NCBI GenBank assembly: GCA_021773095.1
Contig: JAJFKR010000019.1
Coordinates: 1 to 64,000 of the forward strand
Direction of reading: 5' to 3'
Source of the DNA: Woeseiaceae bacterium
GTDB taxonomy: Bacteria; Pseudomonadota; Gammaproteobacteria; Steroidobacterales; Woeseiaceae
Length of the DNA stretch: 64,000 bases
Position numbers and translations under genes: made by a program. Under the pieces are notes generated by a model, which did not search any database, was not told where the DNA came from, and was given only the letters and a program-made list of their open reading frames with translations. This document shows positions 21,294 through 64,000 of this stretch, piece after piece; the stretch's first letter is position 1; every line of letters starts with the position of its first letter.

Positions 21294-22749
21294 TTGAAAG
21301 CCTCCGGGCAGGCCTTGTGCCATTCAGTCTGCTGCTGATATTGATGAGCGCAACGCAACAGCGTCTCTTCGTTGAAATGCGCTCCGACGAGATGCAGCCC
21401 AACCGGCAAATCATCAACGAGTCCACACGGCACGGACATGGCCGGCAACCCGGCGAGGTTTGCGCCAATTGTGTAAATGTCATTCAGATACATCTGAATT
21501 GGATCATCAACCTTGTCGCCCAGCTTGAATGCCGGTGACGGGGTGGTCGGACCTGCAATGAGATCGACATCGGCAAACGCTTTTCTGAAGTCATCCGCGA
21601 TCAGCTGCCGGACCTGCTGCGCCTTCAAATAGTAGGCATCGTAATAGCCGGCCGATAACACGTAGGTGCCGGTCATGATGCGACGCTTCACTTCATCGCC
21701 GAACCCTTCACCGCGACTGCGACAATACAAGTCGAGCAGGTCTTCAGCGTCATCCGCCCGATAACCAAAACGCACGCCATCAAAACGCGACAGGTTTGAG
21801 GAACACTCCGCCGGAGCAACAACGTAGTAGGTCGGCACTGACATATCGAGATTGGGCAAATCAACTTCAACCGTTGTTGCACCAAGAGACTCAAGCACAG
21901 CAATCGCTTCTTTGACTCTTGCTCCGGTCTGCTCTTCCAGACCCGCATCAAAATGCTGGCGAACGATGCCGACACGTAATCCTTTAATCGAATCCCCGAT
22001 GCTTGCAAGGTAGTCGGGAACCGGTTGATCAATGGACGTGGAGTCGCGTTCGTCAAATCCCGCCATGACACCGAGCAGACGTGCGGCATCCTCAGACGAG
22101 CGCGTGATGACACCGGCCTGATCGAGGCTCGACGCGAAAGCGATCATGCCGTAACGTGAAACACGGCCATAGGTCGGCTTGACCCCGACGGTACCGGTCA
22201 GTGCGGCTGGCTGACGAATCGAGCCGCCCGTGTCCGTGCCGGTCGCTGCCGGAGCAAAACGTGCCGCTACTGACGCAGACGATCCGCCCGACGAGCCGCC
22301 GGGTGAACATTCAGGATTCCAGGGGTTTTTGACCGGTCCGAAGTAGCTGGTTTCATTGGACGAACCCATTGCGAACTCGTCCATGTTGGACTTCCCCAGT
22401 ACTACAGCACCCGCATCGGCCAGTTTTTGCACCACAGTGGCATCGTAAGGTGAAACGAAATTTTCGAGCATCTTCGAACCGCAAGTCGTTTTGATGCCCC
22501 GTGTGCAAAAGATGTCCTTGTGAATTATGGGCAGGCCATTCAAGGCGCCGCCTATGCCGGCCACTCGTGCCGCATCGGCCCGGGAGGCGGTGGCGAGTGC
22601 TGCAGATGCCGTCACAGTAACAAAGGCATTGAGCTTGTCATCGTGTGCAGCGATGCGATCCAGCAACACCTGGGTCAGTTCGACCGACGTGAACTCACCT
22701 TTCTTGAGACCGGACGCGAGCTCAGTCAATGTTTGCGAGTGCAGAGCCG

Positions 22750-22753
<4 letters not shown>
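21290..22753 (-). CDS. gatA: Asp-tRNA(Asn)/Glu-tRNA(Gln) amidotransferase subunit A
   Basis: 487 residues. An amidase-signature enzyme that releases ammonia from glutamine for GatB. The catalytic Lys-Ser-cisSer set is visible: Lys in IHKDIFCT, the Gly/Ser-rich stretch [12 protein letters not shown] and [14 protein letters not shown]. Start and stop both overlap neighbours as ATGA, so gatC, gatA and gatB are tightly coupled. The complex makes Asn-tRNA and/or Gln-tRNA; which one depends on the synthetases elsewhere in the genome. Confidence 0.97.
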
Positions 22754-24214
<1,461 letters not shown>

Positions 24215-55488: not shown

Positions 55489-56580
55489 TCAAGTGTCGAT
55501 TTGTATTTTTCCATTGCGAACGAACGGCGTTTTGACGATGCGTACGTTCAACAACCTGCCTCTGACTTCAACCTGAGCCCGGTCATAGTCGCCTGCCGGC
55601 ACTCGGGCCAGTGCGATCGATCTGCCGATGGTTGGCGAAAAACCACCACTCGTGATTTCGCCCTCGCCGACGCCTTCGACAACAACCTTTTGATGGTTTC
55701 TCAGCACACCGCGCTCTTCCAGCAACAGTCCGACAAAACGCTGCTTCGACGGATTATCGCGCAATGCCTGCAAAGCCGCACGGCCGATAAAATCGCGATC
55801 CCCAGGCTCCCATGCGACGGTCCAGTCAAGCCCGGCTTCGAGTGGCGACACCGATTCATCCATATCGGTGCCGTAGAGATTCATCGCCGCTTCCAGGCGC
55901 AGCGTATCCCTGGCCCCGAGACCGCAAGGCACAACGCCCGCCGCCAGCAGACGATCCCACACGCCAGGCGCTTGTGCCGCAGGCAGGCATATCTCCCAAC
56001 CGTCTTCGCCGGTATAGCCGGTCCGCGCAATGAACCAGTCACCGCCCAGCATGCCGAAAAATGGCTTCATCGCCATCGCGGCATCGCGGTAATCGGGAGC
56101 AACGCAGGGTGCGGCGAGCTCTCTCGCATTCGGTCCCTGTACCGCGATCATCGCCAGCTCAGCACGCTCATTGACCGCAATATCGAACGCACCGGCCTGC
56201 TCCCGGATCCATGCAAGATCCTTGATGCGAGTAGCAGCATTGACGACCAGACGATAGTCTGTATCGGACAGGTAATAGATGATGAGATCATCAATTACGC
56301 CACCTCTTGGGTTCAGCATGGCCGTGTAGAGCGCCTTGCCGTATTCGGAAAGCCTGGCGACGTCGTTCGCGACCAGGTATTGCAAGAACTCGCGGACACG
56401 TTTGCCGGCGAGATCAACAATCGTCATGTGCGAAACATCGAACACGCCGGCATTCCCGCGCACCGCGTGATGCTCTTCTTTTTGCGAGCCGTAATGCAGC
56501 GGCATATCCCAGCCGCCGAAATCGACGATGCGGGCATCGGCGTCAACGTGTTTGTCGTAAAGCGGTGTTTTGGATCCCAT
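55489..56580 (-). CDS. gcvT: glycine cleavage system T protein (aminomethyltransferase)
   Basis: 363 residues. Moves the methylene group from GcvH to THF with release of ammonia. Motifs: [56 protein letters not shown] and IGRAALQAL. First gene of the operon; a tandem glycine riboswitch lies 60-245 bases upstream. GAGAG before ATG serves as ribosome binding site. Confidence 0.97.
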
Positions 56581-56919: not shown

Positions 56920-58695
56920 ATGAAAACCTCAGGAATATTGCTGGCTGTGCTGCTTTGGTCGGTCTCCAGCGCGTCCTATGCAGACGCAAGCAGCGCTTTC
57001 GCGACTTTGCTGGACGAGCACTGGGAGTGGCGGATGGCGAGCTCTCCGGTCATGGCATCGGCCCTGGGTGACCGCCGCTATAACGATCAGTGGCCCGACT
57101 CCAGCCTGAATGCGGTCGAACAACGCCATACCGATACGCGCGACTTTTTGCGGCGTGTATATGCAATAGACCGCAGTGCACTTGCGGCCGACGAACAGCT
57201 GAACTACGAGCTGTTTCGGCGCCAATTGCAGGACGATGTCGACGCACACCCGTTCAACGGCCACCTGATGCCGTTGTCGCATCGAGGCGGGATTCAGAGC
57301 CTCAATAACGTGACTAATCAGCTGCGTCTCAGCACGCTAGAGGACTTCGAAGACTGGCTGGCTCGTCTTGGCCAGGTGGACGATCTCATCGACGACACGA
57401 TCTCGATCGCTGAGAGAGGCCGCAAAACGGGCTATATGCCACCAAAAACGCTGATGCAGCGTGTGCCCGATCAACTTAAGCTGCAGGTCGTCGAGTACGC
57501 CACTGACAGCCCGTTTTTTGAAGTATTCGAGAGCCTGCCCGATTCCATCTCCGCCAGCGACCGTGAACGGCTGCGGTCCGCTGCCAGCGAGATTATCGAA
57601 GACGAGTTGCTGCCGGCATATCGGAAGCTCGACAAGTACTTCAATACGCGCTACCTGCCTGCAGCACGCGACAGTGTCGGGTTAGCCGCTCTGCCGAATG
57701 GCAGCGCCTGGTATGAGCATCTAACGCGTTCATTCACGACGACACGAATGACTCCCGATGACATTCATCGCCTCGGTCTTGACGAAGTAAGACGAATACG
57801 TGACGAGATGCAGGAGGTTATCGACCAACTCGGCTTCGAGGGTGGTTTTCAGGACTTTCTGGTCTTTCTCCGCACCGACCCGCAATTCTATTTCGACAAT
57901 CCGGAGGATTTGCACCAGGCCTACCTCGCCACCTGCAAACGCATAGATCCGGAGCTTGTCAATCTTTTTGGAATTCTGCCGCGCATGCCTTACGGGGTGA
58001 AAGCAATCCCTGACTCTATCGCACCGGATACAACGACCGCGTATTACTCGCGGCCCGCCGCCGATGGCAGTCGCGCGGGCATCTACTGGGTGAATCTATA
58101 TCGCCCGGAAGTGCGGCCCAAATACGAAATCGAAGTACTGAGTGTGCACGAGGCCATGCCCGGCCATCACTTGCAGATTGCGCTGCAACAGGAGCTTGGC
58201 AACATGCCGAACTTCCGCCGCTTTTTGGGTTTCACGGCTTTTGTCGAGGGCTGGGGACTATACAGTGAACGTCTCGGCTACGACCTCGGGCTCTACAAAG
58301 ATCCCTACTCCCGATTCGGACAACTCACCTACGATATGTGGCGAGCTGTACGGCTCGTTGTCGACACCGGCATGCACTACAAAGGCTGGACGCGGCAGCA
58401 GGCGATCGACTTCTTCAAAGACAATGCGGCGAAAGCCGAACACGATATCGTCAATGAGATCGATCGCTACATTGGCTACCCGGGACAGGCGCTCGCGTAC
58501 AAGATTGGCCAACTGAAGATGCTGACGCTGCGAGAAAGAGCCGAGCGACAGTTGGGAGAAGACTTCGATATTCGCGCCTTCCACGACGAGTTGCTGGGAG
58601 CCGGCGCCCTGCCACTCGACCTGCTGGAACAACGCATGGACGCCTGGCTAACAACTGTAGGAGCCCGCCCGGTGGACGACCCTCATCGGCCGTGA
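56920..58695 (+). CDS. DUF885 zinc peptidase-like exported protein
   Basis: 591 residues with a signal peptide (GILLAVLLWSVSSASYA). DUF885 family, an M1/M3-like zinc-protease fold, with HEAMPGHHLQ (zinc HExxGHH type) about residue 410 and GWGLYSERLGYDLGLYKDPY. Probably a periplasmic peptidase of unknown substrate. The last 13 codons or so (GARPVDDPHRP) read into a REP element, so the natural C terminus has been altered. Confidence 0.9.
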   Translation: MKTSGILLAVLLWSVSSASYADASSAFATLLDEHWEWRMASSPVMASALGDRRYNDQWPDSSLNAVEQRHTDTRDFLRRVYAIDRSALAADEQLNYELFRRQLQDDVDAHPFNGHLMPLSHRGGIQSLNNVTNQLRLSTLEDFEDWLARLGQVDDLIDDTISIAERGRKTGYMPPKTLMQRVPDQLKLQVVEYATDSPFFEVFESLPDSISASDRERLRSAASEIIEDELLPAYRKLDKYFNTRYLPAARDSVGLAALPNGSAWYEHLTRSFTTTRMTPDDIHRLGLDEVRRIRDEMQEVIDQLGFEGGFQDFLVFLRTDPQFYFDNPEDLHQAYLATCKRIDPELVNLFGILPRMPYGVKAIPDSIAPDTTTAYYSRPAADGSRAGIYWVNLYRPEVRPKYEIEVLSVHEAMPGHHLQIALQQELGNMPNFRRFLGFTAFVEGWGLYSERLGYDLGLYKDPYSRFGQLTYDMWRAVRLVVDTGMHYKGWTRQQAIDFFKDNAAKAEHDIVNEIDRYIGYPGQALAYKIGQLKMLTLRERAERQLGEDFDIRAFHDELLGAGALPLDLLEQRMDAWLTTVGARPVDDPHRP

Positions 58696-59821: not shown

Positions 59822-60778
59822 TCACGCGCCTGCGGGAAACTCTCGTCTTGCGGTAGCAGCCCGCTCCGCAGGCGTTGCCGCCTCGTCATAAATTTCCTCG
59901 ATGCGCGCGATCCGGTTTGCGAGACCCGTGCAGTTTGCGATTTGAATGTTCAATCCGGGTCGGGCGTTCATCTCAAGGATCAAAGGCCCGAGATCGGCAT
60001 CGATGACCATATCCACACCCAGATAGCCGAGGCCAGTGACCTCGCAACCCCGCGCCGATGATTCCAGGATAAAGTCCCACTGCGGTATTTGCAGGCCTGC
60101 AACCAGTGCCCCGGTATCGGGGTGCTCCTCAACCAGTACGTCATCCAGGACGCCGTGCAAAGTAATACCGCTGGCGAGATCCACGCCCGCACCAACAGCG
60201 CCCTGATGCAGATTGGCTTTGCCGTCGGACGCACGAGTCGGCAAGCGCACCATTGCCATTGCGGGATAGCCGCGATACACCACCACGCGGATATCCGGCA
60301 CGCCCTGGTAACTAACCTCCGCGAAGGTCGGGTCAAAATGCACACAATATTCAATCAGCGCCTTGTCGCGAGTACCGCTCAAACTGTACTGACCACCAAC
60401 GATGTTGGAAATGTGATGCTGTAGCTCACCTTCCGAGATCAGCAGACCATTGCTGAGCCTAAAGCTGTCGCGCTTGCGCTCGCTGCGCCCGGTCACGACA
60501 AGGATGCCGTCGCCACCGCTGCCCTGTGCCGGCTTGATAACGAAACTGTTTTTGTCGCCGACTATTTCTGCAAAACCTCTGACTTCCGCCTGATGAACAA
60601 TCACGCCGTACAGATCCGGCACCGGCATACCTGCCGCAAGCGCGAGTTCCTTCGTCAGGACTTTGTCGTCAACTCTTGGATACAAACTGCGCGGATTGAA
60701 ACGCATAATGAAATTGGTATTACGCTCGTTCAGGCCAAGTACGCCGGTTTCGCGAAGTTTTTTGGCGGCGGAGAACAT
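59822..60778 (-). CDS. RimK-like ATP-grasp (alpha-L-glutamate ligase homologue)
   Basis: 318 residues from ATG 60778 (one-base overlap with the 7TM stop). ATP-grasp blocks: FVIKPAQGSGGDGILVV, EYCVHFDP, VPDIRVVVYRGYPAMAMVRL and LGYLGVDMVIDADLGPLILEMNARPGL with the metal Glu and Asn. It belongs to the RimK/glutamate-ligase branch that adds amino acids to peptides or proteins. Always found with the 7TM inactive-transglutaminase protein; substrate unknown. Confidence 0.9.
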   Translation of the reverse strand: MFSAAKKLRETGVLGLNERNTNFIMRFNPRSLYPRVDDKVLTKELALAAGMPVPDLYGVIVHQAEVRGFAEIVGDKNSFVIKPAQGSGGDGILVVTGRSERKRDSFRLSNGLLISEGELQHHISNIVGGQYSLSGTRDKALIEYCVHFDPTFAEVSYQGVPDIRVVVYRGYPAMAMVRLPTRASDGKANLHQGAVGAGVDLASGITLHGVLDDVLVEEHPDTGALVAGLQIPQWDFILESSARGCEVTGLGYLGVDMVIDADLGPLILEMNARPGLNIQIANCTGLANRIARIEEIYDEAATPAERAATARREFPAGA

Positions 60779-62298
60779 CAATCCCGCGTCAACTCTTTAA
60801 AGCGTCTGATCTCGGTCAGACGATAACCCGTGTAGCGGCCGACGAGCATCACGAAACCGAGAATCACGAGAAGCAATTCGGGGAACGTAAAGATCAAATG
60901 CTCGAGCCACGGCATCACCATGAAGGTGTAGGCGGCGACCGCGACGGCCAAACTCCCAAGCCCGGCGCGAATAGCGTCTGCAGGTCCACGCTCTTCCCAC
61001 ACGACGGACATGCGCTCAATCGTCATAGCGATGATGACCATCGGGAATAAAGCAACGGATAAGCCCATTTCCATGCCAAGCCGGTGCGAGGTCATGCTGA
61101 TAAACAACATCAACATGACAACCACGATCAGGACTGCGCTTAATCTTGGCACTAATAACAATCGAAATTTATCGAGCAGGAACCGGATCGTGAGGCCGAG
61201 CGTTACGAGCAGCGTGAAAAGGATCAGACCCCAGAAGAGTTTGGTTTCGCGAAAGGCGAGCGCAATCAACACCGGCATGAAGGTACCGAACGCATCGATA
61301 CCGATGATGTTGCGCATGATAACCATGATGAGCGCGCCGATGGGAATCATCAGCAATACGCTGTACACGGCTTGAGTCTGAATCGGCAGACTGTACAAAG
61401 AAAAATCAACCGCGCTGGTACCCTGCAGTGCCGCTTGTGTTTCAGCGATCGCTACCGCTTCGAGGTGATTGACCTGGATCGCAAAATCGACCTGAACATT
61501 GCTGCCACCTTCGACATTGACCAACGGCTCATTGCCCCGCCACCAAACCAGAAATCGATCGGGAAGACTTTCCTCTCCGGTAGCTGGATTGAAGTAAAGC
61601 CAGCGGTCCCCATCGTGGACCTCGAGCCAGGACACGAGCTCTGCGCTGCGTTGTCGACCTGACAGCGGAAAGCCATGCACCATCCGTGAGGGTATGCGCG
61701 CCGACGCCAACAATGTAGTAATGACATCCACGAACTCGGCGCTTGTAGACACGCCCGCCGATATCAGTTCGACGTTCGAATCAGGCGACGGATCATTCAT
61801 GCGACGCAAGAGTTCTGTCGTAAACGACGCCGTGTCGGCCGAGTGGTCGCGAACGTCGTCAACAAGAACGTCAACCGCAGTCTTCATCGGCTCGATAATC
61901 GTCGGTGTCGGTGGGAATGGCGGCGTCGTGTCAGACTCATTGACACGGTCGTCTTCGTAAACAGAAATACGATAGTAAAGCGTTTGTTCGCCGTCAGCGC
62001 GACGAATTGCCCACTGTGCTTCACGGCCACCACTGCCGAAATTTGTACTAAAGCCGTAACCCCGTGATACAGAGTTTTCGTTGAGCGTGCGGAAACCAGG
62101 TGTCAGCCACGGCACATTGAGCTGCACCTTGATCGATCCCGGACCGCTTTGAAAATTGACGGCGGATTCAATCGTCCACACCGGCGCCTCCTGGTCTTCC
62201 GTTACCGGAAAACCCAGCACCTGCCATTTATAGAAAAAGACTGACAGCCCTATAACCGTTAGCAACGCAGCCAACAGGTACACGTAACGCTGGTTCAT
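60778..62298 (-). CDS. inactive-transglutaminase domain protein with seven-helix membrane domain
   Basis: 506 residues. One N-terminal helix (YLLAALLTVIGLSVFFYKW), a periplasmic region with a transglutaminase-like fold at ~170-275 in which the catalytic triad is lost (Cys region AGVSTSAEF, His region LVSWLEVHDG, Asp region LYFNPATG), then seven membrane helices from about 310 (VYSVLLMIPIGALIMVIM, LILFTLLVTLGLTIRFLL, ...). A known pair with the ATP-grasp gene; role not established. Confidence 0.9.
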   Translation of the reverse strand: MNQRYVYLLAALLTVIGLSVFFYKWQVLGFPVTEDQEAPVWTIESAVNFQSGPGSIKVQLNVPWLTPGFRTLNENSVSRGYGFSTNFGSGGREAQWAIRRADGEQTLYYRISVYEDDRVNESDTTPPFPPTPTIIEPMKTAVDVLVDDVRDHSADTASFTTELLRRMNDPSPDSNVELISAGVSTSAEFVDVITTLLASARIPSRMVHGFPLSGRQRSAELVSWLEVHDGDRWLYFNPATGEESLPDRFLVWWRGNEPLVNVEGGSNVQVDFAIQVNHLEAVAIAETQAALQGTSAVDFSLYSLPIQTQAVYSVLLMIPIGALIMVIMRNIIGIDAFGTFMPVLIALAFRETKLFWGLILFTLLVTLGLTIRFLLDKFRLLLVPRLSAVLIVVVMLMLFISMTSHRLGMEMGLSVALFPMVIIAMTIERMSVVWEERGPADAIRAGLGSLAVAVAAYTFMVMPWLEHLIFTFPELLLVILGFVMLVGRYTGYRLTEIRRFKELTRD

Positions 62299-62327: not shown

Positions 62328-63482
62328 TTATTTGACGCCGAGCGCAACCTTAACGGCGCGTTCTCTGACCGGTCCGCTGCGATTGAAGAGCCGCATGCCC
62401 GCCAGTCTTATTTCTCCCAGAACCGTGGAGTCTGTCGTAAACAGACGATTGAGGCCAGTCATGAAGTGCAACATTGTCGAATTCGCGCCTTTGCGTGCCC
62501 GCTCATATCGCCTCAACACCGGGCGGTCGCCGGGATGCGACCCGTCATCGATTGCTGCACTGATAACGCGTGCAAGCTCGGCGGAATCCTGCAAGCCGAG
62601 ATTCGCCCCCTGTCCGGCCAGAGGGTGAATCGCGTGTGCAGCATCGCCAACGAGTGCGACGCCGGCCCGCACATAATCTTCAGCATGCTGCGCGCGCAAT
62701 GGAAACGCGCCCCTGGGCCCAGCCACCGTCAACTCCCCAAGAACGCCGTCTGAGGCAGCAGTTAGCATACAGCCAAGGTCCTCGTCCGTTGCATCCATTG
62801 CCTGTTGTGCCCTGTCAGGCGTCGTTGACCAGACAACGGAGATACGCCCATCTGCGAGCGGCAACATGCCCAGCGGGCCGTCTCGCAAAAATCGCTGTCG
62901 TGCGGTCGCTGCGTGGTCAAACTCCGTAGTCAGATGTGTAACGACTGCTGTTTGCTTATACGGCCATTTATTGGTTTTTATTCCTACCAGCTCACGTACG
63001 AATGAACGCGCACCATCCGCACCAATAACAAGATCAGCCTTCGGTAACGACTCGATTTTGGTTTCGAACTGCAGCGATACATCGCACTCGGCGATAATTT
63101 TCAGCAAGGCGTCCTGGATGAGCACATTTTCGACAATATGGCCTAACTGGGGAACAGCAAACTCAGCCGCATCGAAGCGCAGCGTTGCACCACCTTCCGG
63201 AGCATCGCCTTCATCCCAGACGCACATCGACTCATACGCTGACACACGCGCCTGCCGGATGATCGTCCAGGCACCGACAGAGTCCAGTAGCTCGGCGGAC
63301 CCGTTGGCTATAGCAGACACGCGCAGTGAAACATCGTCATCCGGTGAAAAACATGGCCGCTTCGCCGCATCAATAACCGTGATATCCAAAGCGCCGGCGT
63401 GACGACCCTTGGCCAGTAAAGCGGCGAGCGTTAGCCCGGTCATGCCAGCGCCGACAATGACGATGCTGAACTGACGTTTCAT
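62328..63482 (-). CDS. ubiI: UbiI/UbiF-type ubiquinone-synthesis monooxygenase
   Basis: 384 residues. FAD flavoprotein: IVIVGAGMTGLTLAALL, VIGADGARSFVREL and ALVGDAAHAIHPLAGQGANLG. The GDAAH motif matches UbiI/UbiF-type hydroxylases that modify the ubiquinone ring; UbiH-type has GN. It overlaps the upstream ubiH stop as ATGA. Which ring position it hydroxylates cannot be told from sequence alone. Confidence 0.85.
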   Translation of the reverse strand: MKRQFSIVIVGAGMTGLTLAALLAKGRHAGALDITVIDAAKRPCFSPDDDVSLRVSAIANGSAELLDSVGAWTIIRQARVSAYESMCVWDEGDAPEGGATLRFDAAEFAVPQLGHIVENVLIQDALLKIIAECDVSLQFETKIESLPKADLVIGADGARSFVRELVGIKTNKWPYKQTAVVTHLTTEFDHAATARQRFLRDGPLGMLPLADGRISVVWSTTPDRAQQAMDATDEDLGCMLTAASDGVLGELTVAGPRGAFPLRAQHAEDYVRAGVALVGDAAHAIHPLAGQGANLGLQDSAELARVISAAIDDGSHPGDRPVLRRYERARKGANSTMLHFMTGLNRLFTTDSTVLGEIRLAGMRLFNRSGPVRERAVKVALGVK

Positions 63483-64000
63483 CGAAGCGGCACACCGCGA
63501 GACAGGCGCGGCAGTTCACCGGCCAGACCCATCGTATGCCTGGCGAACATCGGGCGCACACCCGGAATCAGATCGAAACCGATCATCCCGACGTCGCGCA
63601 GTGTGCGCAGGCCGGGGCGGGAGCTACCGAACAAACGCACGAGATTATCCGTGAAATGGACGAGTTTTTTTTGATCTGGCCGTCGCCACTCGGCATAACG
63701 CTTCAGCAGTTGCAGAGCACCGGGGTCAGAGCCCTTTGCGGTTACATCAGCTATGCAATCGCAAAGTGTCGCTACGTCTCGCATTCCCAGATTAAACCCC
63801 TGCGCGGAAACCGGATGCAGTCCATGTGCGGAATTACCGACCAACACACTGCGTGTCGCCGTGAGTCGAACAGCCTTGCTCAGAATCAGAGGATACGACG
63901 CTCTCGCGCCCACACGTGAAAATTTCCCGAGACGATAACCAAACTCTTCCTGAATTTCGGTCAGAAATTCATCATCGTCGAGCGCCATGACGCGTTCGGC
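63479..64000 (-). CDS. ubiH: UbiH-type monooxygenase, C-terminal part
   Basis: The gene enters the window from beyond 64000, and about 173 C-terminal codons are visible. The motif VLVGNSAHGLHPVSAQGFNLGMRD has the GN form typical of UbiH (2-polyprenyl-6-methoxyphenol hydroxylase) rather than the GD of UbiI. A C-terminal helix set closes the protein. ubiH-ubiI order is common. Confidence 0.85.
   Translation of the reverse strand, partial: AERVMALDDDEFLTEIQEEFGYRLGKFSRVGARASYPLILSKAVRLTATRSVLVGNSAHGLHPVSAQGFNLGMRDVATLCDCIADVTAKGSDPGALQLLKRYAEWRRPDQKKLVHFTDNLVRLFGSSRPGLRTLRDVGMIGFDLIPGVRPMFARHTMGLAGELPRLSRGVPLR

Follow-up and report, generated by a model that had tools for sequence, protein, structure and literature searches.

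A conserved rloB-rloC pair without the RloA protease in Woeseiaceae and relatives

The domains that make up RloB and RloC are reportedly described in a 2009 survey of amidoligases by Iyer et al. A genetic study in Pseudomonas aeruginosa named and analysed the rloABC operon in 2025 (PA14_41690, PA14_41710 and PA14_41730; Lormand et al., PMC12239564). The three RloA proteases of P. aeruginosa are secreted retropepsins, and RloA in vitro cleaves 8E and 10E, not 6E or shorter, and so requires at least eight glutamates; an rloA1-3 triple mutant fails at low osmolarity and is restored to growth by deleting rloB, rloC or both, and single rloB or rloC mutants have milder shape and ampicillin phenotypes (PMC12239564). 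When flagellar mutants were put through a suppressor screen on exopolysaccharide, transposon insertions arose in PA1766-PA1768 (PMC7314104). Shewanella vesiculosa makes more vesicles when a protein annotated as an inactive transglutaminase with seven fused transmembrane helices is disrupted (PMC12096838). The main text of the 2025 study shows no substrate or product of any RloC, and a text search of it finds no mention of RloA-less genomes, relative to which the absence of RloA across the clade described below appears to be new. Here, we describe a conserved RloA-less variant of the known Rlo envelope-stress system from a Woeseiaceae bacterium, found in a window of 64,000 nucleotides (the whole stretch analysed; contig JAJFKR010000019.1, assembly GCA_021773095.1).

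The pair occupies 59822-62298 of the window on the minus strand, as placed by a first-pass annotation made from the sequence alone, and consists of rloB (60778-62298, 506 aa, with PF14400 and PF14402) and rloC (59822-60778, 318 aa from the ATG at 60778, TIGR02291). The overlap of the two genes given in that annotation amounts to one shared base between the rloB stop and the rloC ATG (TGATG); this ATG is the likely start of rloC, a TTG at 60781 being possible but less likely. On the same strand, 29 bases upstream of rloB, lies an ubiI-like gene for a hydroxylase of the UbiH/UbiF/VisC/COQ6 family (62328-63482, minus; TIGR01988, 366 bits), which is kept beside rloB in the RloA-less clade, and beyond it a second UbiH-family gene (63479-64000, minus) that is truncated by the window end and resembles the ubiH of relatives. 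Downstream of rloC come a convergent HTH-cupin gene, a glyoxalase-like gene, a gene for a DUF885 peptidase (56920-58695, plus) that has a HEAMPGHH motif and a start resembling a signal peptide, and a gcvT-gcvH-gcvP block led by gcvT (55489-56580, minus; named by its sequence and its place in the gene order). Among relatives that carry a name, the window RloB is closest, at 75-86% identity, to those of Woeseiaceae and unclassified gammaproteobacterial MAGs. Comparison of rloBC with near relatives gives pN of 0.09-0.15 and pS of 0.69-0.78, and omega is 0.04-0.07 for RloB and RloC in the closer pairs of RloA-less relatives; because pN is far below pS and omega is low, rloB-rloC is no chance pair of open reading frames, and both proteins are shown to be under strong purifying selection where present.

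PF14400 (163 bits) and PF14402 (337 bits; cut-offs 25) together cover the whole of RloB, which comprises an N-terminal transmembrane helix, a periplasmic pseudo-transglutaminase at about residues 31-280 and a multi-helix membrane domain at 281-506. In its AlphaFold2 model (pLDDT 85), residues 38-280 match the transglutaminase-like structure 3isr (Z 14.6, 217 residues, 3.7 Å), and the sole match to the PDB by sequence is a weak one to TgpA 6g49 (E 0.0065). The same genome encodes a TgpA-like transglutaminase that looks active (L204; motifs GFC, HAW and DPT), and alignment with it puts Ser186, Val222 and Asn237 of RloB where that protein has its Cys, His and Asp, in agreement with the first-pass statement that all three catalytic residues are lost; the His position (Val222) was read by hand from the W-x-E motif, the automatic alignment being off by a few residues. 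Across 57 RloB relatives, no conserved catalytic residue is found in the Cys and His columns, and in the third column Asp is retained in many. The transglutaminase domain of RloB is predicted from these residues to be catalytically dead. The NCBIfam RloB model NF052267 matches at full length with 511 bits, below its exception-level cut-off of 900, so the window RloB is a relative of the named RloB that falls outside the narrow exception model. Conservation, measured as mean top-residue frequency, is 0.73 in the membrane part versus 0.60 in the periplasmic part, and the motifs at residues 427-438 and 487-500 (ERMSxxWEERG and GRYTGYRxxExxRF) hardly vary across RloB and exceed the pseudo-transglutaminase in conservation. 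Comparison of the transmembrane domain with the RND transporter fold gives Z of at most 7.7 over about 100 residues, in the background range of helical bundles. Distant second 7TM_transglut matches were seen in longer proteins of two genomes (G109:C22:8236-8844 and G070:C1:2710796-2711386; open frames of 633 and 695 aa), which are possibly a separate paralogous family, and class-level matches at 110-190 bits may be related.

RloC scores 438 bits against TIGR02291 (cut-off 314) and 289 bits against ATPgrasp_ST; its score against the RimK family TIGR00768 is 47 bits, below the cut-off of 143. The structure model (pLDDT 89.5) matches ArgX, RimK, LysX and cyanophycin synthetase at Z 16-18, with ArgX 3vpb on top (Z 17.8, 218 residues, 14% identity) and RimK 5zct at Z 17.1. 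Residues of the ATP-grasp site (Lys39, Lys82, Asp256, Glu269 and the Asn271 region) align with RimK and are invariant in 25 relatives; their presumed roles are carried over from knowledge of RimK. By fold and family RloC is thus a putative glutamate ligase, and the Pfam and TIGR02291 scores and the structural matches uphold the first reading of the locus as a RimK-like ATP-grasp ligase paired with an inactive-transglutaminase membrane protein. No diagnostic residues separate RloA-less from RloA-bearing RloB or RloC at the thresholds used. A cyanophycin-synthetase-like protein with an ATP-grasp and a Mur-ligase-like part is encoded elsewhere in the window's genome (L206; G000:C34, about 22675-23394); a 166-residue piece of it scores 222 bits against TIGR02068, and it is the only PF08443 match listed outside rloC in this genome.

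A sample of 147 genomes from the window's order contains full RloB in 57, and secreted RloA is absent from 36 of these, single-contig genomes included. The 36 have either no match to PF05618 (the RloA/RimB family) or RimB-type members without a signal peptide only, mostly near a RimK-like gene. In 18 of the 57, rloA adjoins rloB; secreted RloA is encoded elsewhere in the genome, unlinked to rloB, in two (G127 and G115) and on a separate contig in another (G044), where the separation is consistent with an assembly break because rloB lies at a contig end. Outside the order, PF05618 is present in all 60 sampled gammaproteobacterial genomes with full RloB and lies within 3 kb of rloB in 59. The difference in RloA absence inside versus outside the order has a Fisher p of about 1e-15, a figure that is a description and not a test, since related genomes are not independent. 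The first-pass observation that a partner of the RimB/DUF785 type is often present elsewhere and missing here is therefore borne out, and the search for the protease gene elsewhere in the genome, which that annotation had proposed, was run: neither PF05618 nor an RloA-specific profile matched anything in the genome that holds the window (89% complete) or in three genomes of the same genus (G035, G056 and G113, 99-100% complete). The profile detects secreted RloA at 1e-28 or better and RimB at 1e-23 or better; in complete RloA-less genomes, searched up to E 1, it gave nothing or matches at E 0.19 or worse. Likewise, four Steroidobacter-type genomes, which measure 7-8.5 Mb and include three isolates, lack PF05618. 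A second RloA-less rloBC lineage occurs in Lysobacterales (Chiayiivirga and relatives; loci L184, L197, L199, L202 and L171), outside the ubi-gcv block, and the other PF05618 members readable in RloA-less genomes of this type are RimB-like.

The RloA-less clade shares the block pepP-ubiH-ubiI-rloB-rloC-gcvT, in which no third gene is conserved at the rloBC locus. Two genomes that fall within or beside the clade (G002 and G054) carry rloA in the same place, as ubiI-rloA-rloB-rloC-gcvT, and because they keep the gene at this site, the simplest reading of the gene order is that rloA was probably lost in place in the window's clade. On two trees, the rloA label changes 4 and 6 times versus shuffle means of about 17 and 41, counts from which the direction of change (loss or gain) is not given by the trees alone; the first tree predates recognition of G115 as RloA-bearing, and Ectothiorhodospiraceae loci L165 and L169, in whose genomes unlinked PF05618 members stand unassigned between RloA and RimB, were left out. 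The DUF885 gene is kept between rloC and gcvT in many Woeseiaceae. In another genome of the same genus (G141; L044:4768-9734), the rlo and rim sets adjoin: directly after rloB-rloC come rimB, a gene resembling those for desuccinylase/aspartoacylase and one of RimK type; the latter two genes were named from reading of their sequences. A further genome of the genus (G105) has the gene block with DUF885 beside gcvT and without rloBC, and the pair is therefore dispensable at least there.

The explanation that we favour, and hold to be slightly on the probable side, is that this is an Rlo pair in a clade that has lost RloA and in which RloBC serves a useful purpose without trimming. In the cytoplasm, RloC would most likely extend an acceptor or a growing chain by glutamate or a different amino acid, as its fold, family and active site suggest, and RloB would hold the product or pass it to the periplasm. 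In bacteria with RloA, the secreted retropepsin would then cut chains of at least eight glutamates, as it does in vitro in P. aeruginosa, where genetics show that cells without RloA are harmed at low osmolarity by what RloB and RloC put out. In the window's clade, rloA would have been lost between ubiI and rloB, as synteny suggests, with rloBC retained, and trimming may be unneeded if, for example, chains stay short, output is low or the product is used as is; shorter chains are without sequence support so far, because residues do not differ between RloA-less and RloA-bearing lineages. The life of G105 without rloBC counts against this explanation, as does RloA loss that is not simply tied to salt water: RloA-less loci also occur in Steroidobacter isolates and a Lake Baikal MAG, and salinity was rejected as a general cause of the loss for the same reason. 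More tentatively, and with doubts that outweigh our confidence, we propose that RloBC may be a self-sufficient envelope-modification module with a useful glutamyl product, that RloA may be an add-on editor of chain length, and that the product is kept untrimmed or self-limited in the Woeseiaceae-Steroidobacteraceae clade and in Lysobacterales.

The harm done in Pseudomonas by loss of all RloA while RloBC is active leads one to expect a substitute, and an unrelated protease or amidase of the periplasm could have taken the place of RloA and left the cycle of making, moving and trimming intact, which we consider unlikely. PF13650 retropepsins occur in 18 of 36 RloA-less and 3 of 17 RloA-bearing genomes searched, and many Woeseiaceae have the secreted-looking DUF885 peptidase, which bears a motif of the HExxH type, near rloBC; however, two complete RloA-less genomes (G048 and G070) have no PF13650, G070 and several other RloA-less genomes have no DUF885, DUF885 adjoins gcvT in G105 where rloBC is missing, and the RloA-less locus holds no conserved third gene. 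Patchy occurrence thus led us to reject PF13650 retropepsins as the general RloA substitute, and the DUF885 protein of the window was set aside for its absence from several RloA-less genomes and its presence in G105. It is very improbable that RloA only seems to be absent because genomes are incomplete or because the models miss a divergent RloA: the window's genome is 89% complete and G127, G115 and G044 have secreted RloA unlinked or on a separate contig, but the absence recurs in genomes that are 99-100% complete, in single-contig genomes and in the 7-8.5 Mb Steroidobacter genomes, and the RloA profile, while scoring the more distant RimB at 1e-23, finds nothing or E 0.19 or worse up to E 1.

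RloC of the clade might instead attach just one amino acid to a carrier protein or an envelope precursor, in a manner like that of ArgX or LysX with LysW, with RloB handling the precursor and RloA never having been needed, a reading that we regard as distinctly unlikely. ArgX is the top structural match and a single addition would not be an RloA substrate, because RloA requires at least eight glutamates, yet RimK and LysX lie within about one Z unit, and the scores of ArgX and RimK are tied; moreover, RloC has no diagnostic change between RloA-less and RloA-bearing lineages, and two genomes placed inside the clade or next to it, G002 and G054, carry rloA in this very block. The favoured explanation of a useful RloBC role without trimming shares with the first-pass annotation the proposal that the ligase makes a product which the membrane protein moves; this agrees with the published genetics, binding or export by RloB being what we infer. 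That annotation also saw here a candidate for an undescribed pathway, which is out of date because of the 2025 rloABC study in P. aeruginosa (PMC12239564) and the Shewanella vesicle result (PMC12096838). A known role in relatives, which it had named as the finding that would overturn its reading, is partly shown by the P. aeruginosa genetics.

The value of the locus is chiefly that of a tractable natural experiment, the family itself being already known. The product of RloBC would be hard to see in Pseudomonas because RloA would destroy or edit it, and bacteria that lack RloA and keep RloBC under strong selection should hold it untrimmed. The RloA-less clade is thus a natural test of what RloBC does alone, with G105, of the same genus and with the gene block minus rloBC, as the natural contrast, and it sets a limit to the published view that RloBC harms the cell unless RloA restrains it.

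Compared with TgpA-type transglutaminases, RloB has a similar membrane-tethered transglutaminase-like domain with a weak sequence match to 6g49, but differs from them in lacking the catalytic Cys, His and Asp and in having a transmembrane domain of a different Pfam family. RloC has the fold of RimK, the ribosomal protein S6 glutamate ligase of the RimBK system, and its aligned ATP-grasp residues, but unlike RimK it falls below the TIGR00768 cut-off and is paired with a membrane protein, in a genome without the protease RimB (PF05618). To the glutamate/aminoadipate ligases ArgX and LysX it is linked by the top structural match, to ArgX, at an identity of only 14%. The closest system is rloABC of P. 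aeruginosa, from which the locus differs in lacking rloA both next to the pair and in the rest of the genome, in the position of the pair between ubiI and gcvT, and in an RloB score of 511 bits on the NCBIfam model with its exception cut-off of 900. The two systems share an inactive-transglutaminase transmembrane RloB and an ATP-grasp RloC encoded by adjacent genes in the same order, and the window RloB shares about 43-44% identity with its counterparts in Pseudomonas species.
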